The notes under the pieces: generated by a model
What the model was told of the DNA's origin: nothing
Databases searched by the model: none
Seen by the model: the letters and a program-made list of their open reading frames with translations, nothing else
Program-made: the position numbers and the translations under genes
Assembly (NCBI GenBank): GCA_947465645.1
Contig: CANIBQ010000032.1
Coordinates: forward strand, 1-52,144
Direction of reading: 5' to 3'
DNA from: Acidobacteriota bacterium
GTDB taxonomy: Bacteria > Acidobacteriota > Vicinamibacteria > Vicinamibacterales > UBA2999
DNA: 52,144 bases
Shown here: positions 604 through 47,298 of the stretch, in pieces
Layout: each line of letters begins with the position of its first letter
Numbering within the stretch: the stretch's first letter is position 1

Positions 604-1321
604 ATGCGACTCGGACCGGCCCAATTCTTCATTTTCCTCTGGGGCACAGAGTTCGCTTCAGGCACCAGGGTGGATCAGCAACCACCGAAGCTGCTCGATC
701 GAGTACGACACACGATTCGCGCGCGCCATCACAGCCGGCGGACAGAGGAGGCGTACGTCCACTGGATCCGTCGGTACATCGTGTTCCATCGTAAGACCCA
801 CCCGTCCGAGATGGGCGGCACGATCTGGATCATCGGCGTCATCCTCTACGGCGCAGGCCTCAGAATCCAGGACTGCCTCGAGTTGCGCGTCAAGGACCTC
901 GACTTCGATGGGCGACGTGAAGCGCCAGCACGAGCTCGACCTGGCGAAGGGTGTGGGACGTGCCGTCCTCCCGTTTGCGCTCGACCGCAAGTACCCAAAT
1001 GCTTCCACGGACTGGGCCTGGCAGTTTGTGTTTCCCGCCGCGCGGATCTGCCGCGATCCGCAGTGGGGTCCGCCCTCTCGCTTTCATCTGCACGAGTCGG
1101 TGGTGCAAAAGGCGATCACGGCCGCTGTGCGCCGGGCCGGTCTCACGAAGACTGTAAGCCCGCACGTGTTTCGCCACTCGTTTGCGACGCACCTACTTGA
1201 AGACGGGTACGACATCCGGACGGTGCAGGAGCTGCTCGGGCATCGCGATGTCAGCACCACCATGATCTATTTGCACGTGCTCAATCGTGGGGCGTTGGGC
1301 GTCCGCAGCCCGGTCGATCGT
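604..1321 (+). pseudogene. Integron integrase (IntI-type tyrosine recombinase), degenerate
   Basis: The first frame (604 to about 905) gives [35 protein letters not shown], the typical N-terminus of integron integrases, from about base 682. It then jumps from HPSEMG straight to [22 protein letters not shown], so roughly 70 residues of the middle are missing. Near 905 the homology moves to another frame (908 onward). That frame carries [25 protein letters not shown] and [12 protein letters not shown], the last typical of IntI, ending near VRSPVD at 1321. The catalytic Arg (GAGLR), HxxR, His (GHR) and Tyr (MIY) are all still readable, but the internal deletion and frameshift should abolish a functional product. 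Confidence 0.8.
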
Positions 1322-18771: not shown

Positions 18772-21234
18772 CTAGGCGGTCTGTCCGCCGCCCCAGCTCA
18801 GGTCGTGATGCTTCAACGGGACGTTGCGGATGCGTTTGCCGGTGATCTTGTAGATGGCGTTGACCATCGCACAGGTCACGTCGGGGATCGCTTCCTCGCC
18901 GGCGCCTTCGATCCACTTGTTGCACTTCAACCAGTGAACGTTGACCTCACGCGGGTATTCGGCCATACGGACGACCGGGTAGGTGTCGAAGTTGCGCTCG
19001 ACGCCCTCGCCGTCCTTGATGTTGATCTCCTGGTACAACGCGTCCGACATGCCCCAGGCGATCTGTCCTTCGATGTTCTTCTTGACCGTCAGCGGGTTGA
19101 CCAGGCTGAAGCCAGTGTCGAACACCACGTCCGCCTTATGGACCTTGACCTGGCCACGCTTGGTGACTTCGACCTCGTGGACCTGGTGGCAGATGGTGCC
19201 CTGGCGGCCCGTCCCCACGCCGACGCCGCGGCGGCGATCGTCGAGCGACACGCCCTGCGCCCAACCCTCGGGCATCTTCTTGCCCCAGTTGGAGACCTTG
19301 GCCAGCAAGTCGACGCCGCGCAGCCAGTCGTCGCGGTAGCGGAACCCGCCGACGCCCGTGCCCTTGAAGCGATCCAGCTTGTTTTCTGGCGGGTTGCGGG
19401 CAATCAGCTCGCGCCGGTACATCAACGGATCTTTGCCAGCCGCGTGAGCGCACTCGTCGATGAACGACTCCAGATAGAACGTGTTGGCCCGCGCGCCGGT
19501 CGCGCGGACGCGTCCCGCGGGGACGTGCGCGGTGGCGATGTGCTGATGCAGCCGGTAATTCGGCACCCAGTAGGGCGGCATCGCGAGGCCGCGCGAATCG
19601 GCCGGCCATGCGCCGCCGACCGTCGTGACGTAGTGGAACTCCATCGCGATGGGATAACCCTGCGAGTCGAGCGCCGCCTTGCCGCTGCCGAACTGGAGGG
19701 GGCTGTAGGTCGAGCCGATGCTCCAGTCCTCTTCGCGGCTCCACATCGTCTTTACCGGACGGCCTCGCACGGTATTGGCGATGTACACCGCGTGCTCGGC
19801 CTGCGGGCCGTTGCCGCTGCTCCCGTACCCGCCGCCCAGGGGCGTCATGTGCAGGTAGCAGTCCTTGATGGGGATGCCGGTGAGCATCGCGGCGTTGGCC
19901 AGCGACCGCTGCGGCTGCTGGTCGCCTACCCACATGTCGACGCGGTTGTCCGTGACGAGCACCACGGCATTGCCCGGTTCCATGCGGGCCCGGCGGACGT
20001 AAGGCACACCGTAGGTCGCCTGGACGATCTTGGCGCCCTTGAAGGCGTCTTCGACGTTGCCCTCGTTGACGACGACCTTGCCCGGCCGCGCCATCGTTGC
20101 CAGATGGTCCTTGGAGATGCTCTCCGTGCTGGCCGTGCCGCCGGGGCCGCGATCCCATTCGATGGGCATCGCATCGAGCGCCTTCTGCGCGTGCCACGTG
20201 GAGTCAGCGATGATCGCCACGCCGCCACTATAGAAGCCGTTCTTCGTCGTCCGGCCGAGCACTTCCTTGGCTTCGCCCGTCTTGTCGTACGGCAGGCGCA
20301 CCACCGAGTGCACGCCGGGCATGTTCTTGACGGCGTCGAAGTTGAAGCTCTTGACGTCGCCGCCCCAGACCGGACACGCCTTGACCGCGGCGTAGAGCAT
20401 CCCCGGCATACGGATGTCGACCGAGTACTTGCAGGCGCCCGTCAGCTTCGCCGGCACTTCGCGGTTGGGCTGCTCGGTACCCATCAGGGTCCACTTGTCG
20501 GGTGACTTGATCTTGATCAGCGACGGATCGGGCAACTGCGTCTGCGCCGCCTTCGCCGCCACCGCACCGTAGGTCGTCTTGCGCTTGCTCTTCGCGTGGG
20601 TGATCACGCTGTCCTTGGCGACGAGCTCGGACACCGGCACGTTCCACAACTGCGACGCGGCCAGCAACAACCGTTCGCGCCCTTCGGCGCCGGCGAGCTG
20701 CAGGTAATAGCGGCTCTCGCGGACGTTGCCGCTCGATCCGACGCCCATGTGGCGATAAAGGCCGGTCTCGCCGAACGACTGATCGGGCTTGCCGCCGCCC
20801 GCGGGATCATGAGCGTTGCCGCCGCCGGGCAGCTTCAACGACCACAATGGGGCTTTCTCGGTCGCGTCGCGGTTCGGCGATGCGAACTCAATCCTGACCT
20901 TGTTCCAGTCGCACTGCAGCTCCTCGGCGACGGTCATCGCGTTGGTCGTCGGAATCGAGGTGCCGATGTCAACGTTCTGGCAGCGGATGGTCACCGTGTC
21001 ATCGGGCGCGATGGTGAACCATGCGTTGATCTCCGGCACCGTCGGATCCCGGTACCAGTTCTCGGGCCGGATCGCCGTCTCGGCGTTGAGCGGCGTAATG
21101 GCGCCCTCAGCAGCGCCCGGCCACCAGAACGCGACCGCCATCCCTCCGCCGACCACGGCTGTCGTGGTCAGAAACTGGCGGCGATTGAGGCCGGTCCAGT
21201 CCGTCTGCGCATCCGAATTCTTAGTCGTCATCAT
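18772..21234 (-). CDS. Molybdenum hydroxylase large subunit (xanthine dehydrogenase family, IorB-like), copy 1
   Basis: 820 residues. A Tat signal, NRRQFLTTTAVVGGG, opens the protein, so the enzyme is exported folded with its cofactor. Molybdopterin-binding segments include GGGYGSSGNGPQ, the ATGARANTFYLESFIDECAH region and the C-terminal GAGEEAIPDV with the expected catalytic Glu. The layout matches the large subunit of isoquinoline 1-oxidoreductase/aldehyde dehydrogenase types: two-subunit Tat-exported molybdoenzymes that give electrons to cytochromes. The 2Fe-2S partner lies 13 bp upstream, and a second copy of the pair follows at 22206-25069. The substrate is unknown. Confidence 0.9.
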   Translation of the reverse strand: MMTTKNSDAQTDWTGLNRRQFLTTTAVVGGGMAVAFWWPGAAEGAITPLNAETAIRPENWYRDPTVPEINAWFTIAPDDTVTIRCQNVDIGTSIPTTNAMTVAEELQCDWNKVRIEFASPNRDATEKAPLWSLKLPGGGNAHDPAGGGKPDQSFGETGLYRHMGVGSSGNVRESRYYLQLAGAEGRERLLLAASQLWNVPVSELVAKDSVITHAKSKRKTTYGAVAAKAAQTQLPDPSLIKIKSPDKWTLMGTEQPNREVPAKLTGACKYSVDIRMPGMLYAAVKACPVWGGDVKSFNFDAVKNMPGVHSVVRLPYDKTGEAKEVLGRTTKNGFYSGGVAIIADSTWHAQKALDAMPIEWDRGPGGTASTESISKDHLATMARPGKVVVNEGNVEDAFKGAKIVQATYGVPYVRRARMEPGNAVVLVTDNRVDMWVGDQQPQRSLANAAMLTGIPIKDCYLHMTPLGGGYGSSGNGPQAEHAVYIANTVRGRPVKTMWSREEDWSIGSTYSPLQFGSGKAALDSQGYPIAMEFHYVTTVGGAWPADSRGLAMPPYWVPNYRLHQHIATAHVPAGRVRATGARANTFYLESFIDECAHAAGKDPLMYRRELIARNPPENKLDRFKGTGVGGFRYRDDWLRGVDLLAKVSNWGKKMPEGWAQGVSLDDRRRGVGVGTGRQGTICHQVHEVEVTKRGQVKVHKADVVFDTGFSLVNPLTVKKNIEGQIAWGMSDALYQEINIKDGEGVERNFDTYPVVRMAEYPREVNVHWLKCNKWIEGAGEEAIPDVTCAMVNAIYKITGKRIRNVPLKHHDLSWGGGQTA

Positions 21235-27596: not shown

Positions 27597-27725
27597 CGTA
27601 TCTCCTTGTGGATGGAGCAGTTTCCAGGCTTCCCTGACGGGTGTCAAGCGGGATCGGCTATTGAACCGTGGTGCCGAACGACCGTGTTAGGATCCGCGCA
27701 CACTTTGCGTAGAGGAAGAGGCCGA

Positions 27726-29891
27726 ATGACATCGTCTTCCCGTCCGCGACCCACCATGGCCCAGGTCACGATCCTGGCGCTGATTTCAGTCCTCGCAGGC
27801 TTCGCGCCCTCCAGCGGCCCAGGCAACCTGCTGGCCGGCAGCACACGCGTGGTGTCCGTGACACCGGCGCCCGAAATGGATGGGGCGATGTGCGAACTGG
27901 TGCCGGGGAGCACCAGCCGCACGCTCTACGCTGCCTTGTGGCAGCAACAGACCGCAGCCGCAGCGGCGCTCGAACGGCCGCCGCTGCGCGCGATCGCCGA
28001 CCCGTACGGACTCTATAGCGCCGTCGGCGTGGACCTCGTGAACGACGAGGTCATCCTGCAGGACGAGAACCACTTCCGCATTCTCGTGTACGACCGCACG
28101 GCGAATACGCCTCCGGGCGCGCCGATGACCGAGCCCAAGCGCGTCATCAGGGGCGATCAAACCAACCTGATGCTGAATTGCGCACTCTATATCGATCCCA
28201 AGAATGGCGACATCTACTCGGTCAACAACGACAGCATCGACAGCACGGTCGTCTTCTCCCGGAAGGCGAGCGGCAATGCCGCGCCCGACCGGAACCTTCA
28301 CACCCCTCACGGGTCATTCGGCATCGCCGTCGACGAGGAAGCACAGGAGATGTTCCTCACCGTGCAGCACTCTCACGCCGTGTCGGTGTTCCCCAAGATC
28401 GCCAAGGATGAGGAGCCGCCGATCCGTGTGATACAGGGTGACCGAACCGGGCTGGGCGATCCGCATGGCATCGCGCTGGACACCAGGACCAACCAGCTCT
28501 TCGTCAGCAACTTCGGTTCGACCATGAGCACGCGCCGCAGTGAGGCGGGGCCGAATGCGAGAGGCGATGGTGACGGGAAGGAGCACTGGCCGCTCGACAG
28601 GGACCACGCCATTCCCGGCTCGGGGAGAAACCTCCCTCCCTCGATCACGGTCTACCCCAAGAGCGCCAGCGGCGACACGGCGCCGCTCCGGGTCATCCAG
28701 GGGCCCAGGACGCAGCTGAATTGGCCGACGGCCATGGCCGTGGATCCCGGGCGCGGGGAGCTATTCGTCGCCAACGACCAGGGCGATTCGGTGCTGGTGT
28801 TCAGCGTCAACGCCAACGGGAATGTCGCGCCGCTTCGGGTGCTGAAGGGGCCGAAGACCCTGATCAAGTATCCGAATGGCCTAACCCTGGATCTCAAGCA
28901 CGACGAACTGTGGGTCGCGAACTTCGGCAATCACGCGGCCACGGTGTACACGCGCGACGCCTCCGGAGACACCGCGCCCTTGCGAATAATCCGCAGCGGT
29001 CCGCTCGACGCCAGCGTACCCGCACTGGGCAACCCGTTCTCGGTCGCGTTCGACACCAAGCGGAAAGAAATCCTGGTGCCGAATTGAGTCGCGCACCCGC
29101 AGATTGCGGCATTCGCCAGGTCGGCGAGTGAAAGTGACGGCCCGAACCGGAGAATCGAAGGACAGAAAACCAATCTCGCACGGACCATGCACGGGATCGG
29201 CTACGACGACATCCACGACGAGATCGTGGTGCCGCAGGCGTTTTCGCAGGCGGTCCTGACATTCCGCGGAGGCGCCACCGGTGAAGAGGCGCCGATTCGG
29301 GTGATCCAGGGATCACGCACGCAGTTGAAAGCGCCGGACCGCATGGCCATCGACCCGGTCAACAACGAGATCTACATCGTCGAGCAGGGCTACATTCTGG
29401 TCTTCGCGCGCGAGGCCAACGGCAACGTCGCGCCGATTCGAAGGCTGGAAGGTCGTGACACCGGGATCGCCGGTTTCAGCTTCGTGGCGGTAGACCCGAT
29501 TCACAACGTGTTGATTCACGGCGGTGGGGGCAAGATCCGCATCTTCGACCGCACGGCGAATGGCAACGCGAAGCCCCTGCGGATCATCGGCGGCCCCAAG
29601 AGCGGGTTCAACGGACCCAACGGCGCCATCGCCGTTCATGCTCCGACAGGGATGATTATCGCGGCGTCACGAGTGTCGGGGACCGACGGATCGCAGCAGC
29701 TCAACAACGTGGGTGAAGTGGCGGCCTTCAGCATTCACGACGAAGGCGACGTGAAGCCTCGGTGGACCATCGGCCGGGGCTTCCTCAAGGTGCCACGCGG
29801 CGTCGCGTTGGACCCCGAGGCCAAGAGCATGATTGTGAGCGACAAGATCGGAAACAGAATCGTGACCTTCCATTTCCCCGAGATCTTCTGA
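27726..29891 (+). CDS. Putative new selenoprotein: exported beta-propeller protein with in-frame UGA (Sec454), copy 1
   Basis: Read as one gene with UGA at 29085-29087 as selenocysteine, this gives 721 residues. The signal peptide (about 11-28) is followed by ~45-50-residue propeller repeats of the type NA(S)GNVAPLRVLKGPKTL..PNG..LD....LWVANFG. The UGA lies inside one repeat: EILVPN-Sec-VAHPQIAAFAR, at the place after the VAN/VPN strand, and the next codons continue the blade in the same frame without a gap. The downstream half has no ribosome binding site or signal peptide. The paralogue at 33100-35295 has UGA at the same position. Cys56 and Cys152 are conserved in both. An AGGAAGAGG site precedes the ATG. 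The function is unknown. Confidence 0.8.
29110..29130 (+). promoter_or_regulatory. Candidate bacterial SECIS hairpin, propeller copy 1
   Basis: An 8-bp stem (29110-29117 with 29123-29130) and loop AGGUC (29118-29122), the loop starting 31 nt after the UGA. Bacterial SECIS elements have a short apical stem-loop with a G among the first loop bases, about 16-37 nt after the UGA; the E. coli fdhF loop that SelB binds is AGGUCU. A smaller hairpin, CCGCA-GAU-UGCGG, lies at 29097-29109. Confidence 0.72.
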
Positions 29892-29892
29892 C

Positions 29893-29958
29893 GAAAAGGG
29901 GTCGGGGGTCATTTTCCGAGGACAGTGTCCTCGAAAAATGACCCCCGACCCCTTTTTC
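29893..29958. terminator. Long symmetric bidirectional terminator
   Basis: A near-perfect palindrome: GAAAAGGGGTCGGGGGTCAT.. pairs with ..ATGACCCCCGACCCCTTTTTC, with an inner GAGGAC-AGT-GTCCTC tip. It has an A-run on the left and a T-run on the right, so it can stop both the propeller gene (+) and receptor copy C (-), whose stop codon touches its edge. Confidence 0.85.
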
Positions 29959-32900
29959 TAGAAGTTGAACTGCAGCACCAGCTTCGCGAACCGGTGGTTC
30001 AGGATTTCCTGGGGCCGCTGCCAGGTCGCGTAGGCCGTATTCAACGTCACGACCGGGTTCGAATTCAGCGCGTTGTACAGATCGACGCTGATATTGGCGC
30101 GCGTCGGTCCGAACCTCACGATCTTCCCGAATCGCAGATCGAGCTGGTTGACCCGGTCGCCGAACATCGTGCCGGGTTCGACGATGTTGACCGCGATGTT
30201 CGAGGCGCCGCCGGAGAGATTGCGGCCGAGCGAGGGCGCGACGATCGCGTTGGTGGCGGTGTAGTTGGCCCAGATCTGCTTGCCCGGCTGGCTCTGGAAC
30301 GACGCCGACATCTGCACATCGACCTTCGGCACCGTATACGTGGTCAGGAATTTCACCAGCGTCCGGAACGGCGTCTGCTGGCGACAGAAGGAGCCGGGCA
30401 TCCACGCGGTGGCGTTGGCGACGTTCAGGACGTCGGCGCCGTTGAGAATCTCCGGCAGCTTCGCGACCACCTCGCACATGTCGATGGTGCGCCGTTCCCA
30501 GTTCGGTCCGCCCTGGAACAGCAATCCCTGGCGAGGCCGCACGTTGAACGTCAGGTCGAACCCGTTCACGTGGTTGATCATCTTGCCGTACTTGTCGGCG
30601 TAGGTGATGAACGTATCCGACGGCCGTCCGAAGGCCGTCGGCTTGAGATCGTACAGCCCCGACACGGTATAGCCGCCGCCGCCAGGGAGCCGCGGGTCGG
30701 CGGGAGCCGTCACACTGAAGGTATCGAAGTCGGCCGGCCCGACCGCGCGATCGTCGGTGACGACGAAGTCGCCGAACCAGGTGCGATAGTAGCCAAAATC
30801 AGCCGACACCCGCGGCATCAACTGGTGCTGGATGCTGGTCGCGAACTGCCAGTTGTGATCGCGCTTGCCCCATCCGCTGAGCGTGTCGGGATCGTAGCTC
30901 GCTCCGACGCGGGTGCTGCCGAAGTCGGGATTGTCCATCGCCCCGCACTCGCCATTGGCGCGCGCTTCGAGCAGGTTGCAATCAGGCACGAAGTTGCGGT
31001 TCGCGTCGTTCCACGAGCGGTTGGTCGTGTTCGACAGCAGGCTCGCCGGCGCGCGCGCCCGTCCAAACGTGCCGTCGGTCGCCAGGCTTGCCAGATACCG
31101 GTTGACCCCGACCTTGATAGCGGTCCTTCCGTCACCGAACAGGTCGTAGGCCGCGCCCGTCCTCGGCTCGAGCTCGTGCCACCGCACCCCGTCGCCTTTC
31201 GGAAACGTGATGTCACGCGTCGGCGTGAACTGACTGGGGCCGACGTACGTTTCCGGATATCCGATGTGGTAGTAGTCGTAGCGCAGGCCCGCCGTCACGG
31301 TCAGCCGGTCGACTGTCCATCTGTCCTGCACGAACAGCCCGTGATCGGCGAGCAGCTTCGTGATCGTCCGGGTCGGCAGGCCGCGGAGCGTCAACCGGTT
31401 GGGCACGCCGTTGTTGAACCGGAAGCTCATGGGCGAGTCGATCGGGTACAAGGTTTGATCGTCGGTGCCCTTGCCCCAGTTGAAGCCGACCTTCAAGGCG
31501 TGCGCGCCGGTGATGTACGACATCGCTGCACGCGCAAAGACCGACTCGTTCCACGTGTTCTGGCCCTGCGGCGTGGCGCGGTAGTTCAAGCCGGTCGACT
31601 GCTCGAGGACGCCGTTCAACTTGACCGGTCCCGGCGGGAACTGCGGGTTGGTGAACATCACGTTCTGGTGGGCGCGGTCCGCGCGCAGCACATGATGGAG
31701 CACCGAGGCTTCGAGCAGCATGCGGCTGGTGACGGGAGAGTTCCAGTCGTAGTTGGGGATCCGCTTGGGGTCGAGCTGCGCCCACTGATTCAATCCGGCT
31801 TCCGTGAGCGTGTTGACGCCCGGATCTCTCGGGTGTTCTTCGGACACCGCCTGGTCGTAGCTGACGCCGAACTTGTTCCTCGGCGTCGCCTGCCACGTGA
31901 CCCGCGCGTTGACGTTCTTCCAGACGTTCGAGATGTCTTCGGGCTCGTCGGACGGCACATAGGTCCAGGCGTTGGGGTTGCCCGCGTTGGCGTTGCGGAA
32001 CAGCGCGCGGGTGCTCTGAGCGCCGGTGTACCGCACCGTCGCGTGGAACCAGAGCTTGTTCTGGATGATTGGTCCGCCGACCGCGGGGTTGATGTCCCAG
32101 ATCCTCTTGAGCGCATTGGGCGCCCTCAAACCGCGATCGCGGAGGTCATCGTTGAAATTGCTCGACGCGAATGCATCGTTGGCAAATGCTCCGAGGAACG
32201 TGCCGCTGAAGGCGTTGCCGCCATCCTTCGGGATCATCTGCATGCGCAGGCCGCCTTCCTTCTGCTCTGCGCCGATCCCGGCCGTGTCGACCAGAATTTC
32301 CACGTACGCGGCCATGTTCGCCGCGCCCTGGGTGCCGCTGCCCGTGCCGATCGAATGGAGCGAGTTGCCGTTGATCACCAGCCGCGGGTCGTCGACGCCG
32401 TGCACGAAAATCCCACCGGGCCCGGCGCCCGACGGTCCCATGCCGCGAATGCCGCCGACGTCGGTATTGGTGGTCGTCACGCCCGCCGTCAGCGCGGCGA
32501 CGAACGGGATGCTGCGCGTCGATGGCAGGGCCTCGAGGACTTCCTGGTCGAGTACCCGCTGGCGCATGGTGTTCTGGACGTCGACGGTTGGCGTTTCGCC
32601 GGTCACCGTGATCGTTTCTTCCAGCGCGCCGACACGCATCTCGGCGTTGATGGTCGCCGCGAAGTTGCCCGACAGCTGAATGGATTCGCGCTTGACCGAG
32701 GAGAACCCGGCCAGCGAGAAGGTCATGGTGTAGGCGCCCGGCCGCAGATCTTCGATTCGATACAGCCCGTTGCCGTCGGTGACGGCGGTCCGCACCTTCT
32801 CAATCAGCGCGGGACTGGCAGCTTCGACGGTGACTCCCGGCAGCACGGCGCCGGAGGTGTCCCGGACGACGCCGGTGAGAGAGGCCTGGGCATAAGCGGC

Positions 32901-32960
32901 CGCAGGCACGAGGAACAACGAAGCGAACCCAAGGATCGCCAACCGAACACGATGGGACAT
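29958..32960 (-). CDS. TonB-dependent receptor with carboxypeptidase-regulatory-like domain (Oar type), copy C
   Basis: 1000 residues. The signal peptide ends AAAYAQ; ASLTGVVRDTSGAVLPG opens the regulatory-like domain; the plug has ETITVTGETPTVDVQNT; the C-terminus VLQFNF ends the barrel. It stands between the two propeller genes, convergent with copy 1 and directly downstream of copy 2 (139 bp apart, with palindromes between). This arrangement, and the propeller/receptor alternation with copy D, suggest that the propellers and receptors belong together functionally. The opposite strand has a 1039-codon open frame that is a composition artefact. Confidence 0.93.
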   Translation of the reverse strand: MSHRVRLAILGFASLFLVPAAAYAQASLTGVVRDTSGAVLPGVTVEAASPALIEKVRTAVTDGNGLYRIEDLRPGAYTMTFSLAGFSSVKRESIQLSGNFAATINAEMRVGALEETITVTGETPTVDVQNTMRQRVLDQEVLEALPSTRSIPFVAALTAGVTTTNTDVGGIRGMGPSGAGPGGIFVHGVDDPRLVINGNSLHSIGTGSGTQGAANMAAYVEILVDTAGIGAEQKEGGLRMQMIPKDGGNAFSGTFLGAFANDAFASSNFNDDLRDRGLRAPNALKRIWDINPAVGGPIIQNKLWFHATVRYTGAQSTRALFRNANAGNPNAWTYVPSDEPEDISNVWKNVNARVTWQATPRNKFGVSYDQAVSEEHPRDPGVNTLTEAGLNQWAQLDPKRIPNYDWNSPVTSRMLLEASVLHHVLRADRAHQNVMFTNPQFPPGPVKLNGVLEQSTGLNYRATPQGQNTWNESVFARAAMSYITGAHALKVGFNWGKGTDDQTLYPIDSPMSFRFNNGVPNRLTLRGLPTRTITKLLADHGLFVQDRWTVDRLTVTAGLRYDYYHIGYPETYVGPSQFTPTRDITFPKGDGVRWHELEPRTGAAYDLFGDGRTAIKVGVNRYLASLATDGTFGRARAPASLLSNTTNRSWNDANRNFVPDCNLLEARANGECGAMDNPDFGSTRVGASYDPDTLSGWGKRDHNWQFATSIQHQLMPRVSADFGYYRTWFGDFVVTDDRAVGPADFDTFSVTAPADPRLPGGGGYTVSGLYDLKPTAFGRPSDTFITYADKYGKMINHVNGFDLTFNVRPRQGLLFQGGPNWERRTIDMCEVVAKLPEILNGADVLNVANATAWMPGSFCRQQTPFRTLVKFLTTYTVPKVDVQMSASFQSQPGKQIWANYTATNAIVAPSLGRNLSGGASNIAVNIVEPGTMFGDRVNQLDLRFGKIVRFGPTRANISVDLYNALNSNPVVTLNTAYATWQRPQEILNHRFAKLVLQFNF

Positions 32961-33020: not shown

Positions 33021-33100
33021 GTACCTACAAGCCGCGCCGGCTGAAGCCGGCGCGCTACAGGGATTGGGCTCCTGTAGCGCGGGGCTTCAGCCCACGCGGT
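33021..33100. repeat. REP-like palindromes between receptor copy C and propeller copy 2
   Basis: Two adjacent GC-rich palindromes: GCCGCGCCGGCT-GAA-GCCGGCGCGCTAC (about 33033-33058), then CCTGTAGCGCGGGGCTTCAGCCC (about 33072-33094). The CTGTAGCGC and GGCTTCAGCC/GGCTGAAGCC words are in inverted orientation, as in REP doublets. They could also terminate the propeller transcript. Confidence 0.55.
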
Positions 33101-35295
33101 TAGTTCCTCGTCGAGGTCATATGCTCGAAGACCTCTGGCACGTGCCAGGTCATCACCGCGTTGAGCTCCTTGTCGGTGACGATCACGCTCTTGTTCTTGG
33201 GGTCCACCGCAATGGCCCGCATCTCGAGCAGCACGCCCTCGCCGATCTTGAACCGCGCCGGCGCGTTGCCGTTGTCGTTGACGGTCCACACGCCAACGGA
33301 GTTGCCTCGCGAGCCCGCGAAGATGATGCCGTTGTACACGGCCGCCAGCCGGCCCTGGCCCGCGCCGTCTCCGGTGATCACGCGTACCGGTTTCACGTTG
33401 CCGTTCGCGGTGCTGTCGAAGACCAGCAGGTTCCGCCCGGCAACAATGAGCGAACGCGTGATGGGGTCAACCGAGATTGCCGCGGCGCCGCCACCACCAC
33501 CCTCCGTCAACAGCGTGGCCGGGCCGCGAATCGCGCGGATGGGCGCCACGTCACCGTGTGCGTCGGCGGGAAACACGAGGATCTGCCCGCCGTCATTGAC
33601 GAAGATTTCCTTGCGAATCGGATCGACCGCGACGCGATCGGCCCGGCGTATCTCGGTGCGCGGACCCTGAATCACGCGAATGGGTGGTTCCTCGCCGGAC
33701 GCCTCGCCCCGGAAGCTGAGGATCGACTGGCTGAACTGCGCGGGCACGATGATCCGGTCAGCGACCTCGTCGTACGCAATCCCGTGCATCGTCCTGCTGA
33801 GCTGGGTGGTCTGTCCTTCGATTCTCCGAATCGGCGCCGCTTGTCCGTCCGCCAACCTGGCGAACACCGCAATCTGCGGATGGGCCACTCAATTCGGGGC
33901 GAGGATGGTCTCGCGCCTCGTATCGAAGGCGACGGCCCCCGGGTTGCCAATCATCAGCGACGGCACCCCGTCTGGTGCCGCGCGGATGGTTCGCAAGGGC
34001 GCGGCGTCACCGCTGGCGTTCAGACGGTAGGCCGTGGCGGTGTGACCGCCGAAGTTGGCGACCCAGAACTCGTTGCGCTGGAGATCGAGGGCGATGCCGG
34101 TCGGGCTCTTCAGCCCTGTCTTCGGCCCCTTAATCACCCGCTTCGGCGCAACGTCGCCGGATGCCTCAGCGTCGAACACGAGAATCGAGTCGGTCGTGTC
34201 GTTGGTGACATAGACGTCTCCGCGCTCGGCGTCAACCGCCACCCCCGTCGGCCAGTTCAACCCCGTGCGCGGTCCGGTGATGACGCGTACCGGCGCGGCG
34301 TCGCCGGAGGCGTTCTTCGCGAAGACCGCGATCGACGGCGGCAGCGTCTTTCCCGACCCGGGCACCGCGAAGTCCCGGTCGAGGGGCCAGTTCTTCAGCT
34401 TCGATCGCTCTTCCTTCTCGGCGGCGCTCAGGTAGTCGGCGGCGCTGACGTCGTTGTCATGGGTCGAGCCGTGGTTGGTCACGAACAACAGCCCGCGCTT
34501 CGAATCGAAGGCGATGCCGTGCGGATCGGCCAGCCGGGTGCGCGTACCCTGCAGCATGCGCAGCGGTGCATCCTCGCCGCTGGCGCCCTTGCGGTAGACG
34601 ACGATCGCGCTGTCGTGCTGAACCGTCAGGAAGACTTCCTGGGCCTCTTCGTCAACGGTGATGCCGAAGGTGCCGTGCGGCGTGTGAATCTCCCGGCTCG
34701 GCGCCACGTTGCCCACCTGCTCGTTGGAGAAGATGACCAGGTGATCCTGCGTGTCGTTGTTGACCGCGTACACGTCGCCGTTCTTCTGATCGATGTACAG
34801 CCCGCACTGGAATTCGATCTTGGTCTTGCTCTCTTCATGCTTCATCAGCGACTCGTCCCACGGGGCGCCGATGATGCGCTTTGGCTTGGCGACCTGGTTG
34901 GGCCCGTTGTTCTCGGTGCGGTCGAAAAACAGCACCTGGAACAGGTTTTCGTCGGTGACCACGACCTGATCCCGCGCAAAATCGATGGCAATCGAACTGA
35001 ACGACGGATACCGATCCCGAATCGTACGAATCGGCGCCCCGTACGACATGGCCTGGGAGGCCGCGCCGCCCTGGGCTCCGCCTCCGCGCGCCTGGTACGA
35101 CGTGTCCGCCTCGTCCGGCAGCGGGCACATCACACCGGTTTCCGGGGGCAGCGGCGACGACGACACCATGTGGTCGATGCCGATGTATCGAGTCCGTGCC
35201 GATACCTCCCGGCTGCCCGGCGACGAACTGATCGCCGCGGCGACGAGCACCGCCGCGACCGCGATCCAACGAAATTTACGCGTTAATAAGGCCAT
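33100..35295 (-). CDS. Putative new selenoprotein: exported beta-propeller protein with in-frame UGA (Sec469), copy 2
   Basis: 731 residues when the UGA at 33891-33889 is read as selenocysteine. The signal peptide (WIAVAAVLVAAAIS) is followed by propeller repeats such as SGDVAPKRVIKGPKTGLKSP..EFWVANFG, up to TWHVPEVF near the end. The UGA context is ETILAPN-Sec-VAHPQIAVFAR, matching copy 1 residue by residue around the UGA, and the frame runs on through complete blades. Cys57 and Cys164 match Cys56 and Cys152 of copy 1. The codon after UGA is GTG here but GTC in copy 1, so restart at that point is not a conserved alternative. GAGAGG precedes the ATG. Taken as two genes, each would be half a propeller. 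Confidence 0.8.
33846..33866 (-). promoter_or_regulatory. Candidate bacterial SECIS hairpin, propeller copy 2
   Basis: An 8-bp stem (33866-33859 with 33853-33846, minus strand) and loop AGGUU, starting 31 nt after the UGA, the same distance as in copy 1. Against copy 1 the stem shows one A-U to G-C double change and several wobble-for-Watson-Crick swaps, so the structure is kept while the sequence changes. Confidence 0.72.
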
Positions 35296-35461: not shown

Positions 35462-38400
35462 TTAGAAGTCCAGTTGCAGGACCAACCGGGCGAAGCGCGC
35501 GCCGAGGATGTCCTGCGGAGCCCGGAAGCTTCCAAACGCGCGGTTCTCGGTGAGCACCGGGTTCGCGTTCAGGACGTTGTAGAGGTCGACGCCGACCATC
35601 GTGTTCAGCCGGCCGGTCCGCACGGCCTTGCCGATGCGCAAATCGAGCTCGTGCATCCGCTCACCGTAGACGGTGCCCGGCTCGACGATATTGACCACCA
35701 TGTTCGCCGCGTTGCCGGAGAGCGGCCGGCCCAGCGACGGCGAGACGATGGCATTGGTCGCGGTGAGGTTGGCAAGCACCTGAGGTCCGGGCAGGCCCTG
35801 GTAGGTCGCCGCGAACTGCACGTCGATCTTGGGAATCAGGTAGGTGCCGATCATCTTGACCTGGGTGATGAAGCTACCTTTCTGGTCGCAAAACGCCTCG
35901 GGCAGCCAGGTATTCGCACCGTTTGCCTCGCCCACATTCAAGGCCCCGCGCAGGATTTCCGGCACCTGCGCAACGATCTCGCAGTTGTTGGTCGACGTGC
36001 GTCCCGTACTGGTGCCGCCCTGCAACGTCAGGCCCTGTGCCAGCCGGGCGTTCATCGTGATGTCGAAGCCGTTCCAGGTATTGGAGGCGTTGCCGTAGTT
36101 GTCCGCGAAGGTGATGTAGTTGTCGGTCGGCCTGCCGAACGCTGCCGGTTTCAGGTTATAGAGTCCCGATACCTGATAGCCGCCGCCGCCGGGCAATCGC
36201 GGATCCGATGGGGCGGTCACGCTGAACCTGTCGTGGTCGGCCGCACTGATAGCGCGGTCGTCGGTGACCACCAGGTTCGTGAACCAGGTGCGGAAGTAGC
36301 TGACGTCCACCGAGACCCGCGGCAGGATCTGCCGCTGCACGCCGGCCGAGAACTGCCAGTTGGAGTCGGGACGCTTGTTCCAACCGGTCAGCGTGTCCGG
36401 GTCATAGCTCGACCCCGGGCGGCGAGTGCCGAAGTCGGGGTTGCTCATGGCGCCGCACTCGGCGTTGGCGGCCGGGCTGAGCAGATTGCAGTCGGGCACG
36501 AAGTTGCGGTTGGCGTCGTTCCACGAGCGCGTGGTCGTGTTGATGAGGCGTGCCGACGGGTTCATGTTCGTCGTGTACGCCGCGTCGGTGCCGGTGCCGC
36601 CGGCGTTGGGCGCGCCGAAAAACCGCAGGTATTTGTTCATGCTGACTTTGACCGCCGTCGTGCCGTCGCCGAACACGTCATAGGCCACGCCGCTGCGCGG
36701 CTGCAGGTCGTGCCATTTCACGCCCTCGGTTTCCGGGAACGTGAAGTCGCGGTTCGGCACCAGGAGACCCGCGCCCACGGACTGCTCGGGGAACGAGACG
36801 TGGAAATAGTCATAGCGAAGACCGCCGGTGATGGTCATCCGTTTCACCGTCCAACGGTCCTGGATGAAGGCGCCGTGGTCCGACTGGTCGATAAACGTCC
36901 GCCACGGGGTCGCCAGCAGCGTCAACTGGTTAGGCACGCCGTTGTTGAACCGGAAGCTGACCGGCGAGTCGATGCTGCGCGCGAACTGGTCCTGGCTCTG
37001 GTAACCAAGGTTGAAGCCGGCCTTGAGGTCGTGGGAGCCGGTGATGTAGGAGGCGGTGAACTTCGGCTGCCGCACCGGATTCTTCGAGTTCGTCGCCGTG
37101 CTGGCCGAGGCGCGGTACGCAAGGCCCGTCGACTGCTCGGTCACGCCATTCATCAACACCCCGCCCGGGTCGTTCGTGAAGTAGATGTTCGTCTGGGGCC
37201 GCTCGCTCGACGAGTCGCGCTTCATGAAGCGCAGCTCGAGCAGCAGGCGGTTGCTGACCGGCGAGCTCCAGTCGAGGAACAGCATCGTCCCCGGCTTGAT
37301 CGGCGCATAGTTGGTGACGTTGGCTTCCGGGGAGACTTCCGCCGACAGCGTCCTCGGGCACGGGCACGAATGCGCAAAGTCGTAGCTGACGCCGAACTTG
37401 TTCCTCTGGTTGGCCTGGTACGTCAGACGGACGTTGGTGCTCTTCCAGATGTTGTCGTTGGTCGCCGGTCCGCGGGCGACGTCGGGCTCGTACACCCAGG
37501 AGTTCGGGTTGCCAGCGTTCTTGTTGTAGTAGATGGACGAGAACTGCCGCGCCTGGTTGTAACGCGCGGTGCCGAAGAACCACAGCTTGTCACGGACAAT
37601 CCGGCCGCCGCCGAAGGGGTTGACTTCCGTATACCGATCCAGCCCGTTCGGTGCGCTCAGGCCGCGGTTCCTCAGGTCGTCGGTGACGTTGCTGCCCTGC
37701 ATCGAACCGTTGGCAAACGCGCCGTAGAAGTGGCCCTCGAAGGTATTGCCCCCGTCGCGGGGAATCAGGTTGATGCGGACGCCGCCTTCCTTCTGCTCCG
37801 CCGAGACGCCGCTCAAGTCGACCTGCATTTCCGCGTACGCCGCCATGTTGCCGGCGCCGTTGGTGCCGCTGCCCTGCGTCGCATGCACCGAGATGCCGTT
37901 CACCTCGGTCCGGATATCTCCCACGCCGTGCACCGTCATGGCGCCCGTGGACGATCCGGATTCGCCGTTGAGGCCGCCGACGTCCTGGTTCGCCTTCGTC
38001 ACGCCGGGCAGCAGCGATGCAATGCTCGCGGTGCCTCGGCTCGAAGGAATCTCGCTGATAATCTTCTGATCCAGCACGATCTGCTTCTTCGTGTTCTGCA
38101 CGTCGACCGTGGGCGTTTCGCCGGTCACGGTGATCGTTTCTTCCAGGGCGCCGACGCGCATGTCGGCGTTGACGGTGGCCGTAAATGTGCCCGTCAGCTC
38201 GATGCCTTCGCGCTTGACGGTGTTGAACCCCGGCAGGACAAAGGTCAGCGAGTAGGACCCGCCACGCAGGGCTTCAATCTTGTACTGGCCGTTTCCGTCG
38301 GTGACGACCGACCGGACTTTTTCAATCAGCGCGGGGCTGGCAGCTTCGACGGTCACGCCTGGCAGCACCGCTCCTGACGTATCTTTGACCACGCCGGCGA

Positions 38401-38482
38401 TTGACGCCTGCGCGTATGCGGACGACGAGAAGATCGCCGTCGCCGACAAGACCAATAGTGCGACCCTGAAATTACGAACCAC
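35462..38482 (-). CDS. TonB-dependent receptor with carboxypeptidase-regulatory-like domain (Oar type), copy D
   Basis: 1006 residues. The signal peptide ends SSAYAQ, followed by ASIAGVVKDTSGAVLPG; the plug has ETITVTGETPTVDVQNT and the C-terminus is VLQLDF. The start is placed at GTG 38482 (VVRNFRVALLVLSATA), which begins the signal peptide and has GGGAGA upstream; the frame stays open about 180 codons further, but that part is antisense to the VWA gene. The plug resembles copy C most, since both read GETPTVDVQNT. The propeller copy 2 gene lies downstream beyond the terminator. Confidence 0.92.
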   Translation of the reverse strand: MVRNFRVALLVLSATAIFSSSAYAQASIAGVVKDTSGAVLPGVTVEAASPALIEKVRSVVTDGNGQYKIEALRGGSYSLTFVLPGFNTVKREGIELTGTFTATVNADMRVGALEETITVTGETPTVDVQNTKKQIVLDQKIISEIPSSRGTASIASLLPGVTKANQDVGGLNGESGSSTGAMTVHGVGDIRTEVNGISVHATQGSGTNGAGNMAAYAEMQVDLSGVSAEQKEGGVRINLIPRDGGNTFEGHFYGAFANGSMQGSNVTDDLRNRGLSAPNGLDRYTEVNPFGGGRIVRDKLWFFGTARYNQARQFSSIYYNKNAGNPNSWVYEPDVARGPATNDNIWKSTNVRLTYQANQRNKFGVSYDFAHSCPCPRTLSAEVSPEANVTNYAPIKPGTMLFLDWSSPVSNRLLLELRFMKRDSSSERPQTNIYFTNDPGGVLMNGVTEQSTGLAYRASASTATNSKNPVRQPKFTASYITGSHDLKAGFNLGYQSQDQFARSIDSPVSFRFNNGVPNQLTLLATPWRTFIDQSDHGAFIQDRWTVKRMTITGGLRYDYFHVSFPEQSVGAGLLVPNRDFTFPETEGVKWHDLQPRSGVAYDVFGDGTTAVKVSMNKYLRFFGAPNAGGTGTDAAYTTNMNPSARLINTTTRSWNDANRNFVPDCNLLSPAANAECGAMSNPDFGTRRPGSSYDPDTLTGWNKRPDSNWQFSAGVQRQILPRVSVDVSYFRTWFTNLVVTDDRAISAADHDRFSVTAPSDPRLPGGGGYQVSGLYNLKPAAFGRPTDNYITFADNYGNASNTWNGFDITMNARLAQGLTLQGGTSTGRTSTNNCEIVAQVPEILRGALNVGEANGANTWLPEAFCDQKGSFITQVKMIGTYLIPKIDVQFAATYQGLPGPQVLANLTATNAIVSPSLGRPLSGNAANMVVNIVEPGTVYGERMHELDLRIGKAVRTGRLNTMVGVDLYNVLNANPVLTENRAFGSFRAPQDILGARFARLVLQLDF

Positions 38483-38570
38483 TGTTGTTGTCTCCCTTTC
38501 GATCACGTCCCGCGGAAACGGAACGAGCGTGTAGTAGTGCAGGCGGATTAAACCGAGACGGCGGGCGACA

Positions 38571-39662
38571 TCATCCGAGCGCCCTGACCAGCAGCAAAAA
38601 GGCCCCGAGCGCCCCCGCAGCCTGCCACCATAACTCAGATTGGTGCTTGAGGACCAGTCCCCCGGGCAACAGGACCAACCCGGCGGCCAGCAGAAACTGC
38701 CAGTACAGCTCCTCCCGCCGCTCCTCCCGGCCGGTGGCGGGGGCCCGGTTACGCACGCTGCTGATGATCCGGGACGCAATCTCGCCGTCGGTCTGCCGGT
38801 CAAGCTCGAGATACTCCCCCCCGCCCGCCCGTGCAATTGTGCGCAGCGATTCGCGGTCGAGCACGGAGTACAACTCGCTTGCGCGGCGCGCTTCCCCGGC
38901 GTCCGGAATGTAGCCGCCGGTCGTCGTGCCGACACCGACGACGTAGACCGAGACGTCGGCGGCGCGCGCGGCCGCCAGCGCACCGGCCACCTTGCCGGTC
39001 CACGCCTGACCATCGGAGATCACGACGAAGGCCTTCGGGTTGGTCGACCGCCCGAACAGCTCCTCATTCGTCTCCACCAGCCGCAATCCCCACAGGACCG
39101 CTTCCTCGATATTGGTATTCCAGGTGGGCGCGTCGTCGAGCCGGAACGGCGGCTGTTCGGAGAGGTGGTCCAGGAAAAAGAACAGGGCGTCCGGGTCTCT
39201 CGTGAGCCGCAGTTGCGGCGCCGTGAAAAACGCGAATAGCGCGAGGCCGACCCGGTCCTGTTCCCAGCTCAGCGTATCGGCGAACGTCCGCATGAACCGC
39301 ATCGACCGCTGCCAGCGGTCGGGCGTCACGTCCGCGACGTACATGGACGCGGAGCTGTCCTGCAGGATGATGAAGTCGGCGCCCGCGGGAACCGGCGTCC
39401 ACATTTGCCGGTACGGGCGCGCCAGCGCGGTGACGCAGAGGGCGGCCGCGACGACCAGGCACAGCCAGAACGCCAGATCACCGATTGAGGCGTACCGCCC
39501 GGCGCGCGGCAGCACCTGCGCCGCTGCGTACCGGCGCGCATCGCGGCGCCGGCGCACCACGTGCCAGCCCCAGACGAGCAGCAGCACCGCCGGAACGATC
39601 AGCAGCCAGAGATAGACGGGCTCCGCAAAGGCGAACGCGTCAGCCCTTCCGCTCAATCGCAC
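38571..39662 (-). CDS. VWA-domain membrane protein (BatB-like)
   Basis: About 363 residues. An N-terminal membrane segment (VYLWLLIVPAVLLLVWGW), a second (LAFWLCLVVAAALCVTALA), a VWA domain with the MIDAS motif DSSAS (IILQDSSASMYV) and TNPKAFVVISDGQAW, and C-terminal hydrophobic segments (QFLLAAGLVLLPGGLVL). BatA/BatB-type proteins work with MoxR-like ATPases in stress tolerance or complex assembly. The start is uncertain: GTG 39662 (MRLSGRADAF) gives a 23-bp overlap with the upstream gene. It is the last gene of the Bat-like operon. Confidence 0.82.
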   Translation of the reverse strand: MRLSGRADAFAFAEPVYLWLLIVPAVLLLVWGWHVVRRRRDARRYAAAQVLPRAGRYASIGDLAFWLCLVVAAALCVTALARPYRQMWTPVPAGADFIILQDSSASMYVADVTPDRWQRSMRFMRTFADTLSWEQDRVGLALFAFFTAPQLRLTRDPDALFFFLDHLSEQPPFRLDDAPTWNTNIEEAVLWGLRLVETNEELFGRSTNPKAFVVISDGQAWTGKVAGALAAARAADVSVYVVGVGTTTGGYIPDAGEARRASELYSVLDRESLRTIARAGGGEYLELDRQTDGEIASRIISSVRNRAPATGREERREELYWQFLLAAGLVLLPGGLVLKHQSELWWQAAGALGAFLLLVRALG

Positions 39663-42774: not shown

Positions 42775-43839
42775 TCATCTGAGCTCGACCGGCGCCTTTC
42801 GAAGGCGAGCGGCTGTCCCGACCCTGGTGGCGGCGGCGACCCCGGCGGCCCGAAGCGCCTTGACCAGGCGCGGAGCGTCTTTCGCGGGCAGCGCGATCAG
42901 CAGGCCTCCCGACGTCTGGGGATCGAACGCGATGTCCGCGAGTCCCTGGGCGACTCCGCGGCCAATCGCCACCTTTCCCTCGAGGTAACTCTGGTTTCGC
43001 TTGCACCCGCCGGTCAGATAGCCGCCGGCGGCGAGACGCGCCGCTCCCGGCAGCAACGGCAGCTTCGCTGACTGCAAGACGATCGTCACGCCGCTCCCGC
43101 TGGCCATTTCATACGCGTGTCCGAGAAGCCCGAAGCCGGTCACGTCGGAGCACGCGTGCACCTGGAATCGGCGCATCACGGCGGACGCGGACTTGTTGAG
43201 CGAGACCATCGATGCGATCGCCGCGCGGACGCTCGCCGCCGGCGCCTTCCGCTGCTTCAGCGCGGTCGTGATGATGCCGGTCCCAAGCCGCTTGGTGAGC
43301 ACCAGGGCGTCGCCGCTGCGAACGCCGACGTTGCGGAGCACGCGGTCGGGGTGAACGGTGCCGGTGACGGCCATCCCGAACTTCAATTCCTTGTCGATGA
43401 TGCTGTGGCCGCCGATCACCACGGCGCCCGCCGCGCGCACGCGTTCAGCGCCGCCCTTGAGAATCTCGCCGAGCACCTCGATCTCGAGGGTGCCTTTCGG
43501 GAAGCCGACGATATTCAAGGCCACGATCGGGTCGCCGCCCATGGCGTAGACGTCGCTCAGCGCGTTGGCGGCGGCGATCTGGCCGAAGACGTAAGGGTCG
43601 TCCACGATCGGCGTGAAGAAATCGACGGTATTCACGATCGCGAGGTCGGGCCGCAGGCGGAATACGCCCGCGTCGTCGGAGGTTTCGGTTCCGACAATCA
43701 GATCGGGGTGTTCCCACTTCGGCAGGCTGTGCAGCACGTGCACAAGGTCGGCAGCGCCGAGCTTCGCCGCTCAACCGGCGGCGGTCACCTGTTGCGTCAG
43801 CCCGGTCAGCTTCAGCGCCTTTCGCCCCGTCACAGCCAT
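42775..43839 (-). CDS. selD: Selenide, water dikinase SelD (itself a selenoprotein, Sec23)
   Basis: 354 residues when the UGA at 43773-43771 is read as selenocysteine. SelD makes selenophosphate from selenide and ATP for Sec-tRNA synthesis. The real start is ATG at 43839: MAVTGRKALKLTGLTQQV, then TAAG-Sec-AAK, where E. coli SelD has the active-site Cys17 and Lys20. Downstream follow the family segments TETSDDAGVFRL, VDFFTPIVDDPYVFGQIAAA, NALSDVYAMGG and TSGGLLIALP. A call that begins at GTG 43743 would lose the catalytic residues. It is divergent from selA, 49 bp apart. Confidence 0.95.
43727..43745 (-). promoter_or_regulatory. Candidate bacterial SECIS hairpin in selD
   Basis: A 7-bp stem including one U.G pair (U-UGUGCA / UGCACA-G) and loop CGUGC, with the loop starting 33 nt after the UGA, within the 16-37 nt range for bacterial SECIS. 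An alternative closer hairpin, UCGGC-GCU-GCCGA, has its loop 16-18 nt after the UGA; I cannot decide between them. Confidence 0.55.
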
Positions 43840-43888
43840 CACTCGTCCTCGCACTCGTCCTCTCAACGGTTACAATCTGGGCGTCCGC

Positions 43889-45295
43889 ATGCCGCGTCCC
43901 GACAGCGCCGCCCTCGCATCCCTTCCCTCGGTCGACCGCCTGCTGCGATCGCCCTGGGCGGCGGAGCTCGTCACCCGCCACGGGCGCCCGGCGGTGACCG
44001 ACGCGATACGCGCCGTGCTGGCGGAGGTGCGCTCGAAGGAAGGCGCGGCCACGCTGGCGGGCGGGACTGAAGACAGCATACTCCGGGCCCGCGTCACCGA
44101 GCGCCTCGACACGATGATGCAGCCATCACTGCGGCCGGTGTTCAACCTCACCGGGACGGTTCTCCACACCAACCTCGGACGAGCCCGCCTGGCGCCGGCC
44201 GCCGCCGCGGCGATCGCGCGGATCGCCGAGCGGCCGTCCAACCTCGAGTTCGACCTGGCGGAAGGCGTGCGCGGCGATCGCGATTCGCATCTCGAGGCGC
44301 AACTGTGCCGGCTGACAGGCGCCGAGGCGGCGACGGTGGTCAACAACAATGCCGCCGCCGTGATGCTCGTGCTCAACACGTTCGCGCGCGGAAAAGAGGT
44401 GCCGACCTCGCGCGGCGAGCTGATCGAAATCGGCGGCGCGTTCCGGATGCCGGAGATCATGGCCGCCTCGGGCTGCCGCCTTCGTGAGATCGGCACGACC
44501 AATCGCGTGCACCTGGACGACTACGCCTCGGCGATCGGCGCCGACACCGGCCTCGTGATGAAAGTGCACACGAGCAACTACGCCGTCGTCGGCTTCACCT
44601 CCGCGGTCCCCGAAGCCGACCTCGCGGCGCTCTGCCGCGAACGGGGCGTCCCGTTTGTCGTCGACCTGGGGAGCGGCAGCCTCGTCGATCTGCGCCGGTA
44701 CGGCCTGCCGCACGAGCCGATGCCCTCGGAGGCGCTGGCGCGCGGCGCCGACGTCGTGACCTTCAGCGGCGACAAGCTCCTCGGCGGTCCCCAGGCAGGC
44801 ATCCTCGTCGGCCGTGCGGACCTGATCGGCGCCATCAGGCGCAACCCGATGAAGCGCGCCCTGCGCGTGGGCAAGATGACGGTCGCGGCGCTCTCGTCCA
44901 CGCTGGCGCTCTACGAGGATCCGGACCGTCTGCCGGAGCGTCTGCCGGTGCTCGGCGATCTCCTCCGGCCGATCGCGGAGATTCGCGGCGCCGCGGAGCG
45001 GTTGAAAGACGCGGTGGCCGCCGCGGTGCAGGGTGCGACGGTCGAGGTGGTTGATTGCGAGAGCCAGTTTGGCAGCGGGGCGCTGCCGACTCAGACCCTT
45101 GCCAGCGCCGGCCTGGCGATCCGGCCCGCGACGGATCGCGGCGCCGGGACCGCCCTGAATCGACTCGCGAAAGCCTTCCGCGATCTGCCGCTGCCCGTCA
45201 TCGGGCGGGTGCACGACGGCGCCTTCATCCTCGACTTCCGATGCCTGGACGACGAGGCGGCGTTCGCCGCACAACTGTCGAAGCTCACCTCATAG
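43889..45295 (+). CDS. selA: L-seryl-tRNA(Sec) selenium transferase SelA
   Basis: 468 residues (E. coli SelA has 463). SelA converts Ser-tRNA(Sec) to Sec-tRNA(Sec) with pyridoxal phosphate. Typical segments: LTGTVLHTNLGRARL, EAATVVNNNAAAVMLVLN, GGAFRMPEIM, VHTSNYAVVGFT, and the cofactor lysine in FSGDKLLGGPQAGI at Lys296 (E. coli Lys295). The ATG at 43889 begins MPRPDSAAL; a TACAAT box (43872-43877) lies just upstream and may be the promoter -10. The gene is convergent with selB; the ends overlap by 6 bp. Confidence 0.97.
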   Translation: MPRPDSAALASLPSVDRLLRSPWAAELVTRHGRPAVTDAIRAVLAEVRSKEGAATLAGGTEDSILRARVTERLDTMMQPSLRPVFNLTGTVLHTNLGRARLAPAAAAAIARIAERPSNLEFDLAEGVRGDRDSHLEAQLCRLTGAEAATVVNNNAAAVMLVLNTFARGKEVPTSRGELIEIGGAFRMPEIMAASGCRLREIGTTNRVHLDDYASAIGADTGLVMKVHTSNYAVVGFTSAVPEADLAALCRERGVPFVVDLGSGSLVDLRRYGLPHEPMPSEALARGADVVTFSGDKLLGGPQAGILVGRADLIGAIRRNPMKRALRVGKMTVAALSSTLALYEDPDRLPERLPVLGDLLRPIAEIRGAAERLKDAVAAAVQGATVEVVDCESQFGSGALPTQTLASAGLAIRPATDRGAGTALNRLAKAFRDLPLPVIGRVHDGAFILDFRCLDDEAAFAAQLSKLTS

Positions 45296-47179: not shown

Positions 47180-47202
47180 CACTGTGTCCGAAAACGATGG
47201 TG

Positions 47203-47298
47203 TGGCGGAAGTGCCTGGGAGTCGAACCCAGCCTCCCCGCAAAGCGGCGAGCAACCGGTTTTGAAGACCGGGAGGGCCACCGGGCCCCGTTCACTTCC
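47203..47298 (-). tRNA. selC: tRNA-Sec (anticodon UCA)
   Basis: 96 nt including an encoded CCA (47205-47203). Acceptor GGAAGTG pairs with CACTTCC. The D arm has a long 6-bp stem with a 4-nt loop, a Sec hallmark. The anticodon arm is CCGGT-CTTCAAA-ACCGG with UCA at 47264-47262. The long variable arm (CTCGCCGC-TTT-GCGGGGAG, one mismatch) and the T arm CTGGG-TTCGACT-CCCAG complete it. It reads the UGA codons of selD and, as proposed, of the two propeller genes, and probably shares a transcript with selB. Confidence 0.97.

Follow-up and report, generated by a model that had tools for sequence, protein, structure and literature searches.

Does a UGA codon in the middle of a long reading frame end the protein, or does it encode an amino acid? 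The question is raised by contig CANIBQ010000032.1 of an Acidobacteriota bacterium (assembly GCA_947465645.1), of which the whole stretch of 52,144 nucleotides analysed here is called the window. An earlier note on this DNA had proposed that the gene at 27726-29891 (copy 1) is probably a new selenoprotein, an exported beta-propeller with an in-frame UGA. We conclude, with a probability of roughly 0.9, that copy 1 and a paralogue in the window (copy 2) represent a new family of double-propeller selenoproteins, decoded by means of SelB and a selenocysteine insertion sequence (SECIS) and predicted to be exported. The features concerned are collected in Table 1.

An open frame under selection on both sides of the UGA

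Between the ATG at 27726 and the stop codon at 29889-29891, copy 1 contains a single internal stop, the TGA at 29085-29087. It is preceded by 453 codons and followed by 267 sense codons, and the earlier statement that the frame stays open for 267 codons is thereby borne out. The downstream part had also been said to have no ribosome-binding site of its own; inspection by eye found no such stretch ahead of 29187, the first ATG of the downstream open reading frame (ORF).

Copy 1 was compared pairwise with loci L001-L004. Downstream of the UGA the rates of nonsynonymous (dN) and synonymous (dS) substitution were 0.12-0.32 and 1.0-1.55 respectively, and upstream they were 0.20-0.28 and 1.2-1.5; dN/dS downstream was 0.11-0.23 in the four comparisons. 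Rows carrying selenocysteine (Sec) had a mean identity to copy 1 of 0.525 before the site and 0.492 after it; for rows carrying Cys the values were 0.527 and 0.499. Judged by these rates, purifying selection acts on both sides of the copy 1 UGA.

Cysteine and TGA at the site among relatives

A protein search gave 2808 matches, and the best 120 by score were aligned. All 90 of these relatives that run through the site have Cys there, one (P0099) has a gap, and the remaining 29 end, as annotated proteins, exactly one residue before it. The random residues that the earlier note had considered were not seen in the 90 covering proteins. The 29 shortened proteins correspond to this gene cut at the UGA, as would result from annotation that takes TGA for a stop, and these predicted selenoproteins are therefore annotated in pieces, which is the splitting that the note had expected of ordinary annotation.

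Homologues that end regularly at the site were found only as such annotations. At the DNA level a collection scan and genome searches yielded 124 loci; with the window added, the site is covered by 145 distinct matched places, of which 116 are in register (local identity of at least 35%). The in-register codons were 112 TGA, 3 TGC and one TAC, with no TAA or TAG at any of the 116 places. The TAC, in L121, was rejected as a site codon: the gene concerned has TGC at its true site, and the TAC comes from a second, displaced match to it. No stop codon was present at any of the 29 out-of-register places (local identity below 35%), which were excluded from the codon count. Of the 112 TGA copies, 62 came from the collection scan, 48 from the genome searches and 2 from the window. 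All but two reach a terminal stop after a further 238-356 codons, and the other two leave their contigs after 201 and 236 open codons.

The terminal stops themselves are mixed (TGA 60, TAG 31, TAA 19, with two copies running off contigs). Given this make-up, the chance of finding TGA in 112 of 112 copies is 10^-29, a naive figure that ignores relatedness, and on these counts the TGA-only pattern at the site is far beyond chance. Sec and Cys alternate at least 15 times (17 by parsimony, against 63 in shuffles) on a FastTree tree of 190 rows, indicating that exchange between them is frequent.

A conserved two-hairpin element follows the UGA

Directly downstream of the copy 1 UGA, and in frame, lies a two-hairpin bacterial SECIS (bSECIS) at 29097-29130. 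A published rule for such elements (PMC13188914) specifies an apical loop of 3-9 nucleotides with G among its first two bases, located 16-37 nucleotides after the UGA, and a minimum free energy of -7.5 or lower. Copy 1 has a spacing of 30 nucleotides, a five-nucleotide loop with G in second place and a folding energy of -11.4 kcal/mol. When the AGGUU loop of copy 2 is folded singly, one further A-U pair closes and leaves GGU.

The 48 bases starting at the UGA were aligned in 106 distinct copies, six of the 112 being left out as repeats of other rows. The alignment forms two hairpins, at columns 13-25 and 26-46. Pairing is kept in 94.7% of its 1272 cells, and sliding the partner lowers this to 33-51%. 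Both sides were changed in 119 cells compared with 39.4 in shuffles, and none of 500 shuffles reached as high; two of the five covariation measures used, the count of pairs changed on both sides and that of further pair types, were not above shuffles. The pair 30-42 is C-G in 76 copies, U-A in 28, U-G in 2 and unpaired in none. It links the third base of a Phe codon with the third base of an Ala codon, both synonymous positions, and the exchange of C-G for U-A therefore alters no amino acid. The pair 27-45, also between two third bases, is GC in 31 copies, AU in 25, UA in 12 and CG in 10, and is unpaired in 27 of the 106.

Codon choice within the element is restricted. The Arg codon of the apical loop is AGG in 102 of 105 copies, a codon used for 7.5% of Arg elsewhere in the same genes; the Ala codon of hairpin 2 is GCC in 109 of 111 (background 39%), and that of hairpin 1 is GCG in 89 of 89 (background 40%). 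A SECIS covariance model, trained on the 106 rows including both window copies, scores these two copies at 75.1 and 60.9 bits, and the next place in the window at 10.6 bits. At Cys-type loci it gives 38.9 bits for the site of L090 and 14.7 bits for that of L056, and reports nothing at the site of L121.

The Cys of relatives, the TGA-only internal stop and the covarying hairpin together support the proposal of a selenoprotein. The UGA at 29085-29087 is almost certainly decoded as Sec, and sequence evidence could hardly make the selenoprotein reading of copy 1 firmer.

The selenocysteine machinery

The window contains all four of selA, selB, selD and the tRNA for selenocysteine (tRNA-Sec), the last being the one tRNA that ARAGORN finds in it. 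The earlier note had placed the machinery at 42775-47298. Its presence there stands, with two corrections: selA lies on the forward strand, while selD, selB and tRNA-Sec are on the reverse strand, and selD extends upstream of its start in the ORF list (43743), past its own in-frame UGA. The real start of selA is probably near 43900, because the match to TIGR00474 covers only residues 102-555 of the ORF.

Twenty genomes were reached through the loci, 19 of them with TGA copies. Both selB and tRNA-Sec exceed the family cut-offs in 16 of these 19, and at least one does in 18. In the twentieth genome (G018), where only a Cys copy was seen, neither is over its cut-off.

Table 1. Positions of the features discussed, in window coordinates unless residues are given.
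Feature	Position	Strand	Basis or remark
Copy 1, very probable selenoprotein gene	27726-29891	+	721 residues, with Sec as residue 454; two six-bladed propellers predicted
Predicted propellers of copy 1	residues ~92-423 and 430-721		structural model
GA-rich ribosome-binding-like stretch ahead of ATG 27726	27712-27721	+	by eye
Cys56 codon	27891-27893	+	conservation count
Sec UGA of copy 1 (residue 454)	29085-29087	+	Cys in relatives, TGA-only count, SECIS covariation
SECIS hairpin 1, CCGCA-GAU-UGCGG	29097-29109	+	alignment and folding
SECIS hairpin 2 (stem of 8 bp; AGGUC apical loop, 29118-29122)	29110-29130	+	-11.4 kcal/mol
His489 codon, candidate active-site partner	29190-29192	+	invariant in 190 of 190 aligned rows
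Copy 2 paralogue	33100-35295	-	731 residues, Sec at residue 469; ~48% identical to copy 1
Copy 2 SECIS, two hairpins, loop AGGUU at 33854-33858	33846-33879	-	folding and SECIS model
Sec UGA of copy 2	33889-33891	-	aligned with the copy 1 UGA codon
Sec-type selD, with its own UGA at 43771-43773 in a GUAAK motif (TAAGUAAKLG)	42775-43839	-	
ORF containing selA	43613-45295	+	TIGR00474 over ORF residues 102-555
selB	45290-47254	-	TIGR00475, 344 bits
tRNA-Sec, anticodon TCA	47207-47298	-	RF01852, 64 bits

Predicted fold and proposed function

The copy 1 protein matches PF01436 (NHL) with 39.5 bits against a cut-off of 20. In DSSP assignments of the predicted models (predicted local distance difference test, pLDDT, 83.2 and 90.5), six four-stranded blades per ring were counted. 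The last blade is without its own fourth strand, which the N-terminal strand 88-91 could supply. Both models put the UGA site in the seventh blade, after strand B and before strand C, in agreement with the earlier view that this blade is complete only if the UGA is read through. The protein is thus predicted to consist of two six-bladed NHL-type propellers. A hydrophobic stretch was noted by eye near residues 13-26, where a helix (11-24) is predicted at low pLDDT; from this N-terminus the protein is predicted to be exported. A Foldseek search with the whole model returned many propellers and no functional lead.

Cys is present in more than 30% of rows at three columns only: 56, 152 (48%) and 454. 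Apart from the Sec site, Cys56 is the one strongly conserved Cys position; it is kept in all 85 Cys-type rows that cover it and in 81 of the 94 covered Sec-type rows.

We propose that SelB and tRNA-Sec decode the UGA at 29085-29087 as Sec, under the direction of the conserved two-hairpin element just downstream. According to the model, Sec454 would then belong to the second propeller, whose first blade carries it in the loop joining strands B and C (BC loop). BC loops lie on one face of a propeller and often line active sites. There Sec454 might form a redox or nucleophilic centre with the invariant His489 and Arg486, and the resolving cysteine, forming a selenenylsulfide with Sec454, may be Cys56, which lies in a flexible N-terminal arm. 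This Cys56-Sec454 redox pair is put forward tentatively. The protein would be a redox enzyme of the cell envelope whose substrates vary from one paralogue to another, and this variety is our proposed reason for the 39 copies found in one assembled genome; confidence in any particular substrate is low.

Alternative explanations and points against

Sec454 could instead be a metal ligand rather than a redox partner of a thiol, with a metal on the top face held by Sec454 and conserved His residues, as in metal-centred propeller enzymes. We consider this unlikely, though still worth weighing: the His residues belong to different propellers of the model (247 and 403 to the first, 489 to the second), and no function follows from the shared fold.

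It is improbable, to a greater degree, that two products are made by design, with translation mostly stopping at the UGA and the double propeller appearing only when selenium is replete. The short form (residues 1-453) would comprise the whole of the first propeller plus a short tail, and the first propeller (~92-423) is indeed predicted to be complete without the second. SelB decoding of UGA competes with termination, which also counts for such an arrangement. However, the short form would break off in an incomplete blade, behind its strand B, the long form is what the 90 Cys-type relatives make, and selection after the UGA has about the same strength as before it.

That the UGA is an ordinary stop followed by a decayed remnant, or a sequencing error, is hardly credible. 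It would account for the 29 of 120 related proteins annotated as ending exactly there, but not for 112 distinct TGA-only copies that all stay open for at least 201 codons beyond, for the low dN/dS downstream in four pairs, or for a covarying hairpin together with Cys in relatives. Reading of UGA as another amino acid, through a UGA=Trp code or a suppressor tRNA, would equally explain the open frame and can be dismissed with the same assurance, as UGA is the terminal stop in 60 of the 110 TGA copies with a visible end, all 90 relatives that cover the site have Cys there and none has Trp, and the sole tRNA found by ARAGORN in the window is tRNA-Sec.

Several observations weigh against the selenoprotein family as we read it, or against parts of its proposed chemistry. 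Folded as single sequences, the hairpin regions of the window are unexceptional for their composition (z-scores of only -1.43 and -0.99); single-sequence folding was accordingly rejected as proof of a SECIS, and the case for the element rests on conservation. One genome with TGA copies (G005), which may be incomplete, has neither selB nor tRNA-Sec over cut-off, and one of 17 tRNA-Sec calls is marginal (G009, 48.8 bits against a cut-off of 47). Co-occurrence with selB in the class of G013, where selB is found in 8 of 9 genomes with TGA copies, was discarded as proof, being uninformative at a base rate of 140 in 193 genomes. Finally, of the 94 Sec rows covering the region of Cys56, 13 do not have this Cys, and the model gives that region a pLDDT below 50.

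Copy number and distribution

In the window, copies 1 and 2 are the only tblastn matches of the copy 1 protein (E <= 1e-3). Across the 19 genomes with TGA copies, the SECIS model R1 finds at least 192 elements. Of these, 39 are in G001, a 4.2 Mb metagenome-assembled genome (MAG; contigs JADFGZ, isolate B32T1B5); counts per genome are lower bounds, scoring having been limited to 150 candidates in each, and some of the matched places were rows of the model itself. The 39 elements fall in 39 different TGA-containing matches of the copy 2 protein, and the same genome additionally has a Cys copy (L056). TGA copies are often clustered on one or both strands, as in L015 (five in about 18 kb), L011, L009, L043, L048 and L063; this clustering suggests local duplication.

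Most of the 71 loci from the collection scan belong to MAGs titled Acidobacteria, Acidobacteriota or related names. Within the class of G013 the propeller family is present in 11 of 193 genomes, and among genomes drawn from the class of G001 in 16 of 250. In the deep-Sep study (PMC12013277), the one Acidobacteriota genome tested, that of Occallatibacter riparius, gave three known and no new selenoprotein genes. The family is therefore not general in the phylum, and the counts from the two classes agree with this.

Neighbouring genes and other features

Neighbour genes were defined as long ORFs by a simple script. No constant neighbour was found around the propeller loci. Among the large neighbour ORFs, of which 9 of 18 were scanned, eight of nine match an outer-membrane beta-barrel family, and five of these also carry a CarboxypepD_reg domain. 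In the window, large CarboxypepD_reg proteins flank copy 2 on the reverse strand (29958-32960 and 35462-39013); no barrel family was matched in these two (E <= 0.001). A partnership between receptor and propeller is possible. Of 116 smaller neighbours 79 were scanned, and amidohydrolases (7), sulfite-oxidase-type molybdenum proteins (4) and Na/sulfate symporters (3) were among the commonest families, counts that have no background rate for comparison. Neighbour gene content is suggestive only.

Elsewhere in the window, 18772-21234 on the reverse strand encodes a molybdopterin-binding aldehyde/xanthine dehydrogenase-like protein, with a match to a twin-arginine translocation (TAT) signal below the Pfam cut-off; at other loci, molybdenum proteins of the sulfite-oxidase type likewise occur near propeller genes (the 4 of 79 neighbours given above). 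Copy 1 is followed at 29898-29952 by an inverted repeat with GGGGTCGGGGGTCATTTT on both arms. No second copy of it was found in the window at up to two mismatches, and no exact match in 130 loci. Possibly it serves as a terminator or is a small mobile repeat.

Relation to known systems

The propeller family shares with SelB/bSECIS selenoproteins such as the formate dehydrogenase FdhA an in-frame UGA, Sec/Cys exchange, the selABCD system and, immediately after the UGA, a stem-loop that has G among the first two bases of its loop. The apical loop of copy 1, AGGUC, resembles that of E. coli fdhF. The family differs from such selenoproteins in the absence of a UxxC or CxxU motif beside Sec, in its 39 paralogues in one assembled genome and in having an extra first hairpin between the UGA and the usual hairpin. 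In principle this is a standard SelB/SECIS selenoprotein; it is unusual in its fold, in the extra hairpin and above all in copy number.

The catalogue in Table 1 of that May 2026 review lists 119 prokaryotic selenoprotein families and subfamilies and names no propeller among them; a term search of the review text gave zero occurrences of propeller, YncE, NHL, lactonase or Acidobacteri. No propeller is mentioned in the passages covered of the deep-Sep paper (PMC12013277), and up to E = 0.01 the copy 1 protein matched no NCBIfam model. Among the open-licence papers listed in literature searches, judged by title and the start of the abstract, we found no report of a Sec-containing propeller or of an Acidobacteria selenoproteome, and mention elsewhere is possible. 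The family is new to the catalogues searched.

Compared with other NHL- and YncE-type propellers (NHL PF01436, Lactonase PF10282, TRIM2/TRIM3), the proteins described here have two propellers per chain, a conserved Cys or Sec in a BC loop and a long N-terminal arm with a conserved Cys. Those relatives that are named, among the best 120 of 2808 matches, carry generic names only, for example YncE fold protein. SELENBP1, or methanethiol oxidase, is likewise a selenium-linked propeller protein and has been reported in Acidobacteria, but according to the same source it contains no Sec (PMC10277263). The selenium-binding-protein family is not among the five Pfam families matched by copy 1 up to E = 1, a search whose filters drop most weak matches.

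Significance

Most characterised selenoproteins have a thioredoxin-like fold, according to PMC13188914, and a propeller would be a different setting for Sec. The published bacterial records, taken over all families, are at least 39 selenoprotein genes in Syntrophobacter fumaroxidans and at least 46 in Desulfosediminicola flagellatus; here one family alone accounts for 39 SECIS-bearing copies in a single MAG. The family opens a direct way to study why selenium is used by some Acidobacteria of soil and groundwater, and it supplies a SECIS model for annotation. The broader picture, for which we see even chances, is of a private, massively duplicated selenoenzyme class in uncultured Acidobacteria: double propellers of the envelope, with Sec in an active loop, 39 in one genome and with a two-hairpin SECIS specific to the family. 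In that case a single family that had gone unrecognised would equal in number the largest complete selenoproteomes known from bacteria, and it may be the main reason why these bacteria keep Sec.
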